IMG/VR virus record: IMGVR_UViG_3300017773_000087
Span: 1 to 30,022 of that record
Reading direction: 5' to 3' (one strand)
Length of the DNA stretch: 30,022 nt
Source of the DNA: a virus
The notes under the pieces are model-generated. The model did no database searches. It saw only the letters and a list, made by a program, of their open reading frames with translations, and was not told the origin of the DNA. Positions 1 to 11,464 of this stretch are shown piece after piece (positions within the stretch are counted from its first letter, which is position 1; every line of letters begins with the position of its first letter). The position numbers and the translations under genes were made by a program.

Positions 1-665
1 ATTTCCGCAATCTCCTGAGCATCAAGGGGTTCGCCATCGTCACCTTCAGCGTCGATCACAACTCCGGTGCCGGTATCGTCGGCGAAAGGATCACCGCCGC
101 CTTGCGGAGCATCGTCATCACCGCCGCCCGTGTCGCTGTCATCACCGTCACCTTGCGGGGTATCATCGTCACCGCCGCCCGGCTGGGGTGATGTGGGTTG
201 CTCCTGAGCAAACTCGTCGGCCAGAATCTCAGTTGAATATTCAGACCGGTCCCGCTTCAGATCACCGACAGCGCTCCAATCAAGAGCGCTAGCCGGTAGC
301 GACTTGCTATCCTTGCGGAGCAAGTCATTGATGATCACGTCACCGCAGATATTCCATAACTTGGGATCACGAGAACCCCGTCGCAGATGGTGGAAAAATA
401 TCTTGTGATAAACCTCGTGGGCAAGCACCGCTTGCACCTCGTGATCCGATAACGTCAGCGCGAAGTCGGGATTGATATAAAGACTCTTGCCGTCGGTTGC
501 CATGGTCGGCAGCGTGTCCGTCCAGACGGTTGGCATTTGGATCAGCATTGCAGCGGTGAACGGGTCCGTCATCTGCAATTTGATCTTGGCGCGGGTGACG
601 TGCCGCACCGCCTCAGCAGACGGTTCGACAGCCCCATCATTTAATTGCGATACAAGTGAACTCAT
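1..665 (-). CDS. Zinc-metallopeptidase / VWA-like phage protein, third gene of the MoxR operon (3' end cut off)
   Basis: This open frame has no stop before the window edge, so only the first 221 residues are visible. The start is the ATG at 665-663, preceded by a GGAGG ribosome binding site, 3 bp after the stop of the upstream gene. Residues 83-87 read HEVYH, an HExxH zinc-peptidase signature, followed by a second helix containing NICGDVIIND. Residues 160-215 form a Gly/Asp/Gln-rich acidic linker. This layout (N-terminal HExxH helix, acidic linker, expected C-terminal VWA-like domain) is that of the putative metallopeptidase/VWA family (DUF2201-like, CobT-like) often encoded beside MoxR-type ATPases. 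By analogy the ATPase may remodel or load a target with this protein as adaptor. The C-terminal MIDAS motif lies outside the window, so the VWA assignment is inferred. Peptidase activity is unproven in this family. Confidence 0.75.
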   Translation of the reverse strand, partial: MSSLVSQLNDGAVEPSAEAVRHVTRAKIKLQMTDPFTAAMLIQMPTVWTDTLPTMATDGKSLYINPDFALTLSDHEVQAVLAHEVYHKIFFHHLRRGSRDPKLWNICGDVIINDLLRKDSKSLPASALDWSAVGDLKRDRSEYSTEILADEFAQEQPTSPQPGGGDDDTPQGDGDDSDTGGGDDDAPQGGGDPFADDTGTGVVIDAEGDDGEPLDAQEIAE

Positions 666-668
666 TTT

Positions 669-1577
669 TCAACCTCCAAAAAAACCAGCAAGGCGATCAG
701 TGATTTCCGACGCCTCAGATTGCACAACCTTGACCACCTCAGCATTCGAAGGGTCTTTGAACTCAGTCACATCGTGACGGAGCAATTCACTGCCCTTGAT
801 ATCATCGACAAGGGCAGCAAGGTCAGGATCACCGGCGACATTCAACGCCGGTAAGATGTTCACGAGGTCGCCCAGGTTGGTGATCATCGTGTCGTAAAGG
901 CGGCGATTAGCCTCCGTCTTTTTCTTGCCACCCGCCTTGCGAACCTCAACAGACTCGTACCCGTCGAGGCACGTAGCGATATGCGAGACCGCCTTGTGCA
1001 GTCTCTCGAACGTGTGACGGGTAGCACTCCGCAGCAAGTCGGCGTTGTCGTCGTCGATCTCCGCACGTATCTGCGCGGCCTTATCGTCAACGATCTTGGC
1101 ATAGAAGTTCGCGCCAGTTGGCACGTCCCGCGCCCGCCATTTGAATTCATACATGGATTCAAGATCGGCGTAGCGTAGGTAATCGTCTTCGCGGAACATG
1201 CCGTTCAGTTGCTTGCGGCGCTGTTCGATTAGCTGGGGGAGCTTCCCGGCCAAGTCGGAAACGGCGGTATTAAACCGGCGCTTGTGATCATCCATGGTGG
1301 TCATGTATTGATCGAAAAGCTCAACGGGTAACAGGCGATAGGTGCCATCCCATGGAAGGGTCAACCGCTCGTGGTCACCACGTGCCGCACGTGCCGCACG
1401 CTGCGGCCCATCCACCATGCGCGGATCAAGTAGGTGCTTGTCATACTTGCCAGCGTTGTGCGAAGCGGCATGCTCCGCATTAACCTTGTCGGTAACGTCC
1501 CGATCTTTGCGCGTGAACCCGGCACAATTGATCTGCAATGTGATAAGCATCGCGTTTTCTTGGATAATGTTTTCCAT
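669..1577 (-). CDS. Hypothetical middle gene of the MoxR/VWA operon (possibly DUF3150-like)
   Basis: The protein has 302 residues if it starts at the ATG at 1577-1575. An in-frame TTG at 1595 would add six residues, but the purine-rich GGAGAGG lies between the two, so the ATG fits better. That ribosome binding site overlaps the TGA of the ATPase gene, indicating translational coupling. The sequence is mostly charged and predicted helical, with basic stretches and no membrane segment or signal peptide. Visible landmarks are KYDKHLLDPRMV near residue 50 and LPWDGTYRLLPVELFDQY near 80. A protein of this size often sits between CobS/MoxR-like ATPases and CobT-like VWA proteins in phages and plasmids and is classed as DUF3150. 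I suspect this family from context and the N-terminal pattern, but cannot confirm it. Its role is unknown; it may be a substrate adaptor of the ATPase. Confidence 0.75.
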   Translation of the reverse strand: MENIIQENAMLITLQINCAGFTRKDRDVTDKVNAEHAASHNAGKYDKHLLDPRMVDGPQRAARAARGDHERLTLPWDGTYRLLPVELFDQYMTTMDDHKRRFNTAVSDLAGKLPQLIEQRRKQLNGMFREDDYLRYADLESMYEFKWRARDVPTGANFYAKIVDDKAAQIRAEIDDDNADLLRSATRHTFERLHKAVSHIATCLDGYESVEVRKAGGKKKTEANRRLYDTMITNLGDLVNILPALNVAGDPDLAALVDDIKGSELLRHDVTEFKDPSNAEVVKVVQSEASEITDRLAGFFGG

Positions 1578-2634: not shown

Positions 2635-2640
2635 ATCCTC

Positions 2641-2700
2641 ATAAGCGTTTCGGCGGTGCTGCCGCCTCATCAGTGCCCTAGCAACAAGGGCAGACACTAA
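2641..2700 (-). ncRNA. Type III hammerhead self-cleaving ribozyme in the 5' UTR of the MoxR operon
   Basis: Read on the minus strand, all conserved hammerhead parts occur in the correct order. The stem III 3' strand UUAGUG (2700-2695) is followed by UC (2694-2693), so G2695-U-C forms the canonical GUC cleavage triplet, with cleavage expected between 2693 and 2692. Stem I is UGCCCU (2692-2687), a 7-nt loop UGUUGCU, then AGGGCA (2679-2674). The core CUGAUGA is at 2673-2667. Stem II is GGCGG (2666-2662), loop CAGCA, CCGCC (2656-2652). The core GAAA is at 2651-2648. The stem III 5' strand CGCUUA is at 2647-2642. Stem III pairs C-G, G-U, C-G, U-A, then a U-U mismatch and A-U. Loop II AGCA can pair with loop I UGCU, the kind of loop-loop contact natural hammerheads use. 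The ribozyme ends beside the Shine-Dalgarno at 2640-2636, so cleavage would give an ATPase mRNA with a 61-nt leader and a 5'-hydroxyl end. Confidence 0.93.
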
Positions 2701-3387
2701 TTCAAATGTGGCCGGATATTCTTTCCCTCCGTAGGGGCACGAGACTAACTCTCTTTAGAGCTTGTCCCTACTTTGTGCAGACTACCGGGCTTTCAGAGCT
2801 ACTTCGTAGCTTTGGGCGTTACCGCCTCTTGTCGTTACCGGATCAGAGCCATCGTTCACAAAGCATCGCTAGGCTTGCTAGGCCTGAATTTCACAAGTAG
2901 CTGGAACCTCCTGTTAAAAATTTGCGACTCCGTGGCCGCAGTTGGTTTAGATCATACTCTGATCTGCATAGCAACCCCTTTATTCAGGAATAGTCCACAT
3001 TATTTAGGGTCACCATTCCCAGCCTTCTAGCCGGTCACTTGATAGGTGACGTATGGCAGCGGGAAACCTTACAGCATGATCTATTCTGCTGAGTCTTTAT
3101 ATATAGGGTCTATACAAGGGGTATCTGAGGGGTACGACAAGGCCTAGCCTAGCCCTTGGCATGCTCTAAGAAGAATGTTCTTGACTTTGGAAAAGTGTAA
3201 CAAGATCAAGCACTTAGGTACCCACAAAAGAAGTGTGGTCTTATTTAGGCTGTAAGCCCTTGATATTAAAGGCGGAATCCTAATAGGCCCAAGTCGGAGG
3301 TCTCTGGTGGGGTAGGTGCTGAGAACCTCTAATCATGCTCTATGGGGCTTAAAATGGACGACAGGCCGTCAAGCACAAAAGCGCCAT
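2701..3387. other. Non-coding, hairpin-rich region between divergent transcription units
   Basis: No credible gene is present; the short open frames lack ribosome binding sites and recognisable sequence. On the minus strand, as the upstream leader of the ribozyme transcript, several hairpins can be read. GTAGGG pairs with CCCTAC (2774-2769 and 2735-2730) around an inner AGCTCT/AGAGTT stem. AGCTAC-GAA-GTAGCT lies at 2812-2798. GGCG-GTAA-CGCC lies at 2826-2815. TGCGGC/GTCGCA (2940-2923) is followed by AAATTTTT. AGATCA-N5-TGATCT lies at 2965-2949. CCGGCT-AGAA-GGCTGG lies near 3033-3018 and pairs better on the minus strand, because its G-U pairs become mismatches on the plus strand. GTCAC-N7-GTGAC lies near 3050-3034. 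I found no tRNA-like fold and no convincing sigma-70 promoter. Confidence 0.55.
2817..2840 (+). repeat. Two direct repeats CGTTACCG, 16 bp apart
   Basis: CGTTACCG occurs at 2817-2824 and 2833-2840 with identical orientation and a 16-bp period. It could be a pair of protein-binding sites, such as iterons or operators, or parts of the structured leader. Two copies of an 8-mer are weak evidence alone. Confidence 0.4.
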
Positions 3388-3410
3388 TGTGGATAACTTT
3401 CTGTGGATAA
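3388..3410 (-). promoter_or_regulatory. Two tandem perfect DnaA boxes
   Basis: TGTGGATAA occurs at 3388-3396 and again at 3402-3410. Its reverse complement, TTATCCACA, is the consensus bacterial DnaA box. The repeated unit extends to TGTGGATAACTTT with a 14-bp period. The pair sits inside a short inverted repeat, CAAAAG near 3376 and CTTTTG near 3411. Tandem strict DnaA boxes in the divergent non-coding region point to a replication origin using host DnaA, or to DnaA-linked control of the flanking operons. No replication genes lie in the window to decide between these. Confidence 0.75.
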
Positions 3411-3428
3411 CTTTTGCACGCCAGAATA

Positions 3429-6012: not shown

Positions 6013-6189
6013 ATGGCAAAAGGCGTTCCTCATTATTTCCGAGATGGAACCAAGCATACTGGGGGTATGCACAAGATGCCCAACGGTGAGATGCACAGTG
6101 GCGCTCGTCATACAAACAACAGCAAAAAACTTTTCCATCTTGCTGATCTTTCAGCAACCGCAAAAAAGAAAGCGAAGAGTAAAAAGTAA
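6013..6189 (+). CDS. Tiny basic protein, 58 residues
   Basis: The ATG at 6013 follows a weak AGGGTAAG ribosome binding region. The protein begins MAKGVPHYFRDGTKHTGG, has repeated Gly-Met-His turns (GGMHKMPNGEMHSGARHT) and ends in a Lys-rich tail (KKKAKSKK). Its stop overlaps the next ATG (TAATG), fixing it in a coupled gene string. Small proteins of this H/G/K type are common before the terminase in marine phages. The function is unknown. Confidence 0.75.
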   Translation: MAKGVPHYFRDGTKHTGGMHKMPNGEMHSGARHTNNSKKLFHLADLSATAKKKAKSKK

Positions 6190-6398
6190 TGGCTAAGTTG
6201 TGTGCCAAAGGGAAAGCTGCCGCCAAACGTAAGTTTGATGTGTACCCTTCGGCTTATGCGAATATGTACGCAAGTGCCGTATGTAGTGGCAAGGTCAAGC
6301 CCGGTGGGAAAAAGAAAAAGGAAGCGGGTGGATCTGTCGGTAGAGGGTGCGGTGTTACAAGAAAAGGTTCCGGGGCTGTTATGAGAGTCACGGCATGA
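6189..6398 (+). CDS. Small basic protein with KRKFDVYPSAYAN motif
   Basis: The protein has 69 residues, coupled to both neighbours (TAATG upstream, ATGA downstream). The block LCAKGKAAAKRKFDVYPSAY, followed by ANMYASAVCSGKVKPGG, is a well-conserved phage motif known from cyanophage and pelagic phage small proteins. The tail GRGCGVTRKGSGAV is Gly/Arg-rich. It is likely nucleic-acid-binding or virion-associated from its charge, but no function is established. Confidence 0.75.
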   Translation: MAKLCAKGKAAAKRKFDVYPSAYANMYASAVCSGKVKPGGKKKKEAGGSVGRGCGVTRKGSGAVMRVTA

Positions 6399-11047: not shown

Positions 11048-11098
11048 CGCAAAGGGAACCGTTGCCCCTTTTGAAAGCAACGCGCAATGAGGAATATT

Positions 11099-11464
11099 AT
11101 GTCTGAAGTGGTTGAGTTAAAGAAAGATACACCAACTCAACTCCCTGAACCGCAAGGTTACAGGTTGTTGATAGGCATGCCTGAGGTTGAAGAGAAAACA
11201 GTCGGAGGCATATACAAAACAGATCATGCTATGGAAACAGAATCTGTTGCCAGTATTGTCGGCTTCGTTCTTAAAATGGGGCCTGATGCGTACAAGGATG
11301 AAAAGCGGTTTCCTTCGGGACCGTGGTGCAAGGAGGGAGACTTTATTCTCTTCCGCGCTTTTCAAGGGACACGTATCAGAATACATGGTAAAGAGTTTAG
11401 GCTGATTAACGATGATGGCGTTGAAGCTGTTGTTGATGATCCGCGTGGATACACGAGGGCATGA
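11099..11464 (+). CDS. GroES-like co-chaperonin (Cpn10 family)
   Basis: The protein has 121 residues from the ATG at 11099, supported by GAGGAA 7 bp upstream; the ATG at 11087 has no ribosome binding site. The fold pattern of Cpn10 is clear: PQGYRLLIGMPEVEEKTVGGIY (19-39), a flexible segment KTDHAMETESVAS in the mobile-loop position, then IVGFVLKMGPDAY, KEGDFILFRAFQGTRIRIHGKEFRLIND and a final EAVVDD. A 12-15-residue insertion (about 62-78) separates the strands compared with cellular GroES. Phage co-chaperonins such as T4 gp31 adapt host GroEL to fold the capsid protein. Its place between portal and scaffold supports that job here. Confidence 0.85.
   Translation: MSEVVELKKDTPTQLPEPQGYRLLIGMPEVEEKTVGGIYKTDHAMETESVASIVGFVLKMGPDAYKDEKRFPSGPWCKEGDFILFRAFQGTRIRIHGKEFRLINDDGVEAVVDDPRGYTRA

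Follow-up and report, generated by a model that had tools for sequence, protein, structure and literature searches.

A predicted type III hammerhead ribozyme directly ahead of the MoxR-like ATPase gene of a phage operon

The ATPase operon and the region upstream of it

We analysed a 30,022-nt stretch of viral DNA, the whole of which is referred to here as the window (IMG/VR virus record IMGVR_UViG_3300017773_000087, positions 1 to 30,022), in which a three-gene operon on the minus strand is preceded by a short RNA element and a long intergenic region (Table 1). The succession of a MoxR-like ATPase and a DUF2201 metallopeptidase/VWA-like protein is that of N4 gp24/gp25-like genes, with one extra gene between them. 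This bears out the original prediction, made from the letters of the window, that the element lies in the leader of a MoxR/VWA operon: the ATPase belongs to phrog_1297, and a 302-aa protein followed by a DUF2201/VWA-like protein is encoded downstream. Family searches with the second gene (669..1577) returned no match. The homologue of the third gene in a related contig (L003:4960-6258) matched PF13203 (E 8e-44) and PF09967 (E 3e-22). Relatives of the ATPase gene are present in IMG/VR, while none were confirmed in bacterial genomes, and a search of solved structures with the ATPase gave no match.

Table 1. Features of the operon and its leader, in window coordinates
Feature	Position	Strand	Basis
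Type III hammerhead ribozyme (predicted)	2641..2700	-	predicted cut 2693/2692; RF00008 and R1 models, compensatory changes
Stem I, 6 bp, 2692-2687/2679-2674, loop UGUUGCU	2674..2692	-	sequence; U-A to C-G in L004 and L005
Catalytic core CUGAUGA	2667..2673	-	sequence; L005 has CUGACGA, differing only at free position 7
Stem II, 5 bp, 2666-2662/2656-2652, loop CAGCA	2652..2666	-	sequence; two double-sided changes in L005
GAA core (2651-2649) and 3' strand of stem III	2644..2651	-	sequence; stem III pair changes in relatives
Shine-Dalgarno GAGGA of the ATPase gene	2636..2640	-	sequence; 4 nt ahead of the ATG
MoxR-like (N4 gp24-like) AAA ATPase, 349 aa	1582..2631	-	phrog_1297, E 4.7e-64; tblastn to Schitoviridae gp24-like ATPases
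Second operon gene, no family assignment, 302 aa from the ATG at 1577	669..1577	-	ORF; 98% identical homologue in L003
Third operon gene, DUF2201 metallopeptidase/VWA-like, HEVYH motif	1..665	-	sequence; runs off the window end
Conserved, probably structured leader RNA	2711..2915	-	closing stem 2865-2857 with 2777-2769; alignment A3

The operon diverges from a small terminase gene (homologue at L003:1609-2259) across about 700 nt that hold no plausible gene and are conserved in relatives. Within this region, the putative leader RNA is closed by a long stem (UGCUUUGUG/CACAAAGUA), and 5 of its 37 predicted pairs show a two-sided change in alignment A3, which comprises four sequences. The leader folds no better than shuffled sequence, and in one relative (L010) it is replaced by unrelated sequence. 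An Rfam scan of positions 2690-3420, together with the replaced segment of L010, returned only the hammerhead, in L010. A tRNA-like leader was rejected, as ARAGORN finds no gene, and so was a widespread motif, the conserved blocks being confined to this clade. No sigma-70 promoter-like site was found upstream of the ribozyme, so the transcript of the ATPase leader is one that we infer. A search for phage-type RNA polymerase (PF00940) found no match in four relative contigs; the control genomes were likewise silent, which renders this result uninformative. The same intergenic region holds two perfect DnaA boxes (TTATCCACA) 14 bases apart (3388-3410, minus strand), which are conserved in L002, L003, and L010 and mark a possible phage replication origin.

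Elsewhere in the window, positions 6169-6283 are 80-84% identical to pelagiphage and cyanophage DNA (HTVC203P, 023Pt_psg01, and P-SCSP2). This 115-base match was considered as an RNA and rejected, since it appears coding, apparently for a small basic protein. A phage GroES-like co-chaperonin gene lies amid structural genes at 11087-11464 on the plus strand (Cpn10, E 1.3e-9).

Identity and conservation of the ribozyme

Judged by covariance models and by comparison with relatives, the element at 2641-2700 is almost certainly a self-cutting type III hammerhead ribozyme placed just ahead of the phage ATPase gene. Read on the minus strand from 2700 to 2641, it is UUAGUGUCUGCCCUUGUUGCUAGGGCACUGAUGAGGCGGCAGCACCGCCGAAACGCUUAU, and it divides into UUAGUGUC, the predicted cut, and then UGCCCU-UGUUGCU-AGGGCA-CUGAUGA-GGCGG-CAGCA-CCGCC-GAA-ACGCUUA. 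The three stems stand in type III order with stem III open, and their pairing is kept through compensatory change. Stem III (2698-2694/2648-2644) has 5 bp, counting A15.1-U16.1 and including one G-U. The cleavage-site triplet GUC lies at 2695-2693, with a residue 17 other than G in keeping with the NUH rule, and the core residues (C3, U4, G5, A6, N7, G8, A9, G12, A13, A14, and A15.1-U16.1) are all present in the sequence and in the cmscan alignment. The original prediction had described a canonical core, a GUC site, stems I and II of 6 and 5 bp, and complementarity between UGCU of loop I and AGCA of loop II, all of which the sequence confirms; stem III, which it described as short but supported, has five pairs with one G-U and shows compensatory changes in relatives. 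Folded by itself, the 59-nt element has the hammerhead as its minimum-energy structure, and for a longer piece the energy model prefers a competing fold in which the Shine-Dalgarno and part of stem II are paired. The 3' end of the ribozyme directly abuts the Shine-Dalgarno, and the predicted cut falls 61 nt ahead of the ATG at 2631, in agreement with the predicted placement.

Classical type III hammerheads belong to plant satellite and viroid RNAs, where they process rolling-circle RNA. The phage element is like the RF00008 type III family in its CUGAUGA/GAAA core, GUC site, closed stems I and II, open stem III, and complementary loops I and II, whereas it differs from the classical members in sitting in the leader of a DNA phage and in its score, 39.7 bits against a cut-off of 48.5. 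This score comes from an end-to-end RF00008 alignment by cmscan (E 2.3e-7 for a 351-base stretch, 4.6e-9 for the record), and a default scan at the gathering score, which is a curated threshold and not a biochemical criterion, reports nothing. Every other phage type III hammerhead that we scored also fell under the cut-off, reaching at most 46.9 bits, and the cut-off therefore probably mirrors the composition of the family rather than a defect of the element. A second model, R1, was built from 13 type III hammerheads on contigs outside the clade of the window; in its alignment 94.7% of cells are paired, 11 pairs are changed on both sides, and covariation is 0.646 versus 0.07-0.13 when slid. 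R1 matches the window element with 51.3 bits (E 2.7e-13) and also recovers the ribozymes of L002, L004, L005, and L010. Moreover, a structural descriptor has one match in the window and none in 200 dinucleotide shuffles of it (12 Mb, both strands). The assignment to type III is thus supported by two covariance models, by compensatory changes in relatives, and by an intact core.

The hammerhead is in place in all relatives with at least 79% ATPase protein identity (L002-L006 and L010). Stem changes were compared in a hand alignment of five distinct clade sequences, that of L003 being the same as that of L002. Among these five, the core is invariant except at free position 7, while stems and loops vary. 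Five base pairs distributed over the three stems change compatibly, each with at least one two-sided change or via a G-U step: U-G/U-A/C-G and G-C/A-U in stem III, U-A/C-G in stem I (L004 and L005), and G-C/U-A and G-C/C-G in stem II, where one position next to the loop is mismatched in L004. The presence of compensatory changes in every stem, the covariation that the original prediction had proposed to look for in related phages, shows that selection acts on the fold. The complementarity of the loops is also kept in the clade with 3-4 pairs, as UGCU/AGCA in the window, L002/L003, and L004, with those loops recurring in L010, and as GCU/AGC in L005. The distance from cut to ATG is 60-65 nt in all five distinct members. 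The tests put forward with the original prediction favoured it, in that RF00008 matches and the relatives covary and keep the core, with two qualifications: the score lies under the cut-off, like those of the other phage type III hammerheads, and the ATPase leaders of two relatives at 71-73% ATPase identity (L007 and L008) go without the hammerhead altogether.

Recurrence in related operons and ahead of other phage genes

The ATPase operon carries such ribozymes in three lineages, one of which has the ribozyme before the second gene and with a changed stem II. In L068/L069, whose ATPase identity is 45%, the ATPase leader carries a hammerhead-like element with an extra U after A9 (R1 42.5 bits, E 1.4e-10), and a regular hammerhead lies two genes earlier. 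In L009/L064 and L065 (51-56% identity), the ATPase leader is without a hammerhead and a variant is found in the leader of the second gene. As seen in L009 and L065, this variant has a GUA site, an intact CUGANGA and GAAA, and a U-U replacing the pair at 10.1-11.1 of stem II. The two copies differ by compensatory changes in stems I, II, and III, which argue for selection. R1 scores the L065 copy at 21.8 bits (E 4e-4) and reports nothing for that of L009 at E<=1, so that we base this variant on the descriptor and the pairwise comparison. In L009 (1122-2402) and L064, no stop interrupts the ATPase frame before it has passed the hammerhead-like element and entered the second operon gene, which places the element within a single long ORF; a Shine-Dalgarno and ATG of its own are also present for the second gene. 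In eight reference phages with a gp24-like ATPase, R1 found no match and the flanks examined held no hammerhead; since these phages, as well as L007 and L008, have the ATPase without the ribozyme, it is not essential to the operon.

Hammerheads directly ahead of phage genes are widespread. A gene-blind search of viral contigs for a pattern made up of the core and stem II yielded 44 stretches, most of which are type III hammerheads, with a good part of the rest resembling type I. A Shine-Dalgarno, a start, and an ORF of at least 40 codons follow within 110 nt in 29 of the 33 distinct matches (three or four of which come from the window's own clade), as compared with 19% of random same-strand positions, and most of these 29 lie 14-35 nt from the gene. 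Several other contigs carry two or three hammerheads, typically each ahead of a gene. The downstream genes vary; two bear a weak resemblance to the anti-restriction proteins ArdA and ArdC, which agrees with the ardA association given in PMC3088659. Type I hammerhead-like elements were also seen shortly before phage starts in L012, L017, L028, L038, L039, L040, L047, and L055, and no Rfam type I match was obtained at E 0.01 for the four scanned (L012, L017, L028, and L039). One contig that holds a type III hammerhead has, in addition, a RAGATH-1-hammerhead match under cut-off (L035:3653-3735, minus strand, 41.2 bits).

That hammerheads occur in some phages, as the original prediction stated, is already known: Perreault and colleagues in 2011 described them adjoining or flanking phage genes including ardA, with several per genome, described the processing of long phage transcripts, and showed cleavage for some prophage examples in vitro and in E. 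coli (PMC3088659). The present element shares the position next to a phage gene with those hammerheads, but the accessible portions of that paper do not name the MoxR/N4 gp24-like operon or report a general placement at ribosome-binding sites. A further parallel in the same paper is the HHphage hammerhead of haloviruses HF1/HF2, which likewise precedes the start codon of a replication-type ATPase, there a helicase, by only 13 nt, although it is a variant hammerhead, from an archaeal virus, and before another gene (PMC3088659). A 2017 review called the function of hammerheads in bacteria and phages open (PMC6155905), and we found nothing later than these 2011 and 2017 papers on hammerheads in phage leaders. 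No paper containing both "hammerhead ribozyme" and "MoxR" turned up in a literature search that reached few subscription papers, in line with the earlier statement that the MoxR/VWA link was not known to have been described; the recurrence in the gp24-like ATPase operon appears to be undescribed so far.

A proposed role at the 5' end of the ATPase mRNA

We propose, with a probability of roughly 70%, that a self-cutting type III hammerhead in the leader of the three-gene operon defines and stabilises the 5' end of the ATPase mRNA, as a natural counterpart of RiboJ. Once transcribed, the ribozyme would fold, cut itself after GUC, and release the upstream leader. The ATPase mRNA would then start with a 5'-OH on the opening nucleotide of the 6-bp stem I, which would become its 5'-terminal hairpin; the hairpin of stem II and then the ribosome-binding site would come next. 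Such an mRNA would have a uniform 5' end with no triphosphate and no free single-stranded end. In E. coli mRNA decay, RppH acts on 5' triphosphates and RNase E prefers accessible 5' monophosphates, preferences that would predict a stable mRNA from a 5'-OH, hairpin-closed end. The transcript may thereby be less subject to 5'-end-dependent decay (RppH, RNase E) and to interference from upstream sequence.

RiboJ is an engineered element that carries an added downstream hairpin. The phage element, by contrast, is natural and has no added downstream hairpin. In E. coli, RiboJ, which places the sTRSV hammerhead in synthetic 5' leaders, raised transcript levels twofold and protein two- to tenfold (PMC6206723). 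The likeness lies in the predicted cut, which would leave the mRNA with a 5'-OH and with its very 5' end in a hairpin, followed by the ribosome-binding site (PMC6206723). The predicted cleaved leader of the phage element has the RiboJ layout, in that stem I begins with its first nucleotide, 60-65 nt ahead of the ATG. The sequence, the fold, selection on that fold, and the place ahead of the ribosome-binding site in this and many other phages are shown here; cleavage in the cell, stabilisation of the mRNA, and a benefit to the phage are what we infer.

A different role, which we consider unlikely, is that the ribozyme serves the RNA upstream of it, freeing the 3' end (with a 2',3'-cyclic phosphate) of a functional noncoding leader RNA of some 200-600 nt. 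The conserved, apparently gene-free stretch of about 700 nt between terminase and ATPase would suit such an RNA, as would the compensatory pairs within 2711-2915, but the leader shows no folding beyond that of its shuffles and other phages place the hammerhead between tightly packed genes, with no long leader RNA. Moreover, in L010 the 150 nt just upstream of the ribozyme are unrelated to those of the other members, with the next stretch further up common to them, and L010 nevertheless keeps the ribozyme, which indicates that the ribozyme goes with the gene and its mRNA and not with the upstream RNA.

We regard as improbable a regulated switch, in which ATPase translation is toggled by cleavage or by a ligand or ribosomes that prevent it. 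The ribozyme ends directly at the Shine-Dalgarno, a conserved and possibly structured element lies upstream, and the HF1/HF2 hammerhead ahead of the helicase gene has been proposed to act in regulation (PMC3088659); yet that upstream element is not kept in L010, and in each of the five members cleavage makes no difference to the computed probability (0.3-0.5) that the Shine-Dalgarno is unpaired. A translational switch is for this reason not favoured, unmasking of the Shine-Dalgarno by cleavage was rejected, and the suggestion in the original prediction that cleavage could control translation finds no support. An inert hammerhead-like sequence that has lost its activity, for which the sub-threshold Rfam score and the short stem III might speak, is very improbable, because preservation of the core (bar free position 7) in five distinct members whose stems and loops vary, with compensatory changes in the stems, is not what one expects of a dead element.

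The preferred reading, a ribozyme that forms the 5' end of the ATPase mRNA, touches on phages more broadly, as the many hammerheads lying just before phage gene starts suggest that phages trim and protect the front ends of their mRNAs with them. More tentatively, and at somewhat less than even odds, tailed phages may generally use hammerheads as makers of mRNA 5' ends, with the gp24/gp25-like operon having them in at least three lineages and its genes being expressed from self-cut mRNAs. The hypothesis that hammerheads fix the 5' ends of phage mRNAs and protect them is both concrete and cheap, and the set of phage hammerheads would provide candidates for natural insulators of varied sequence.
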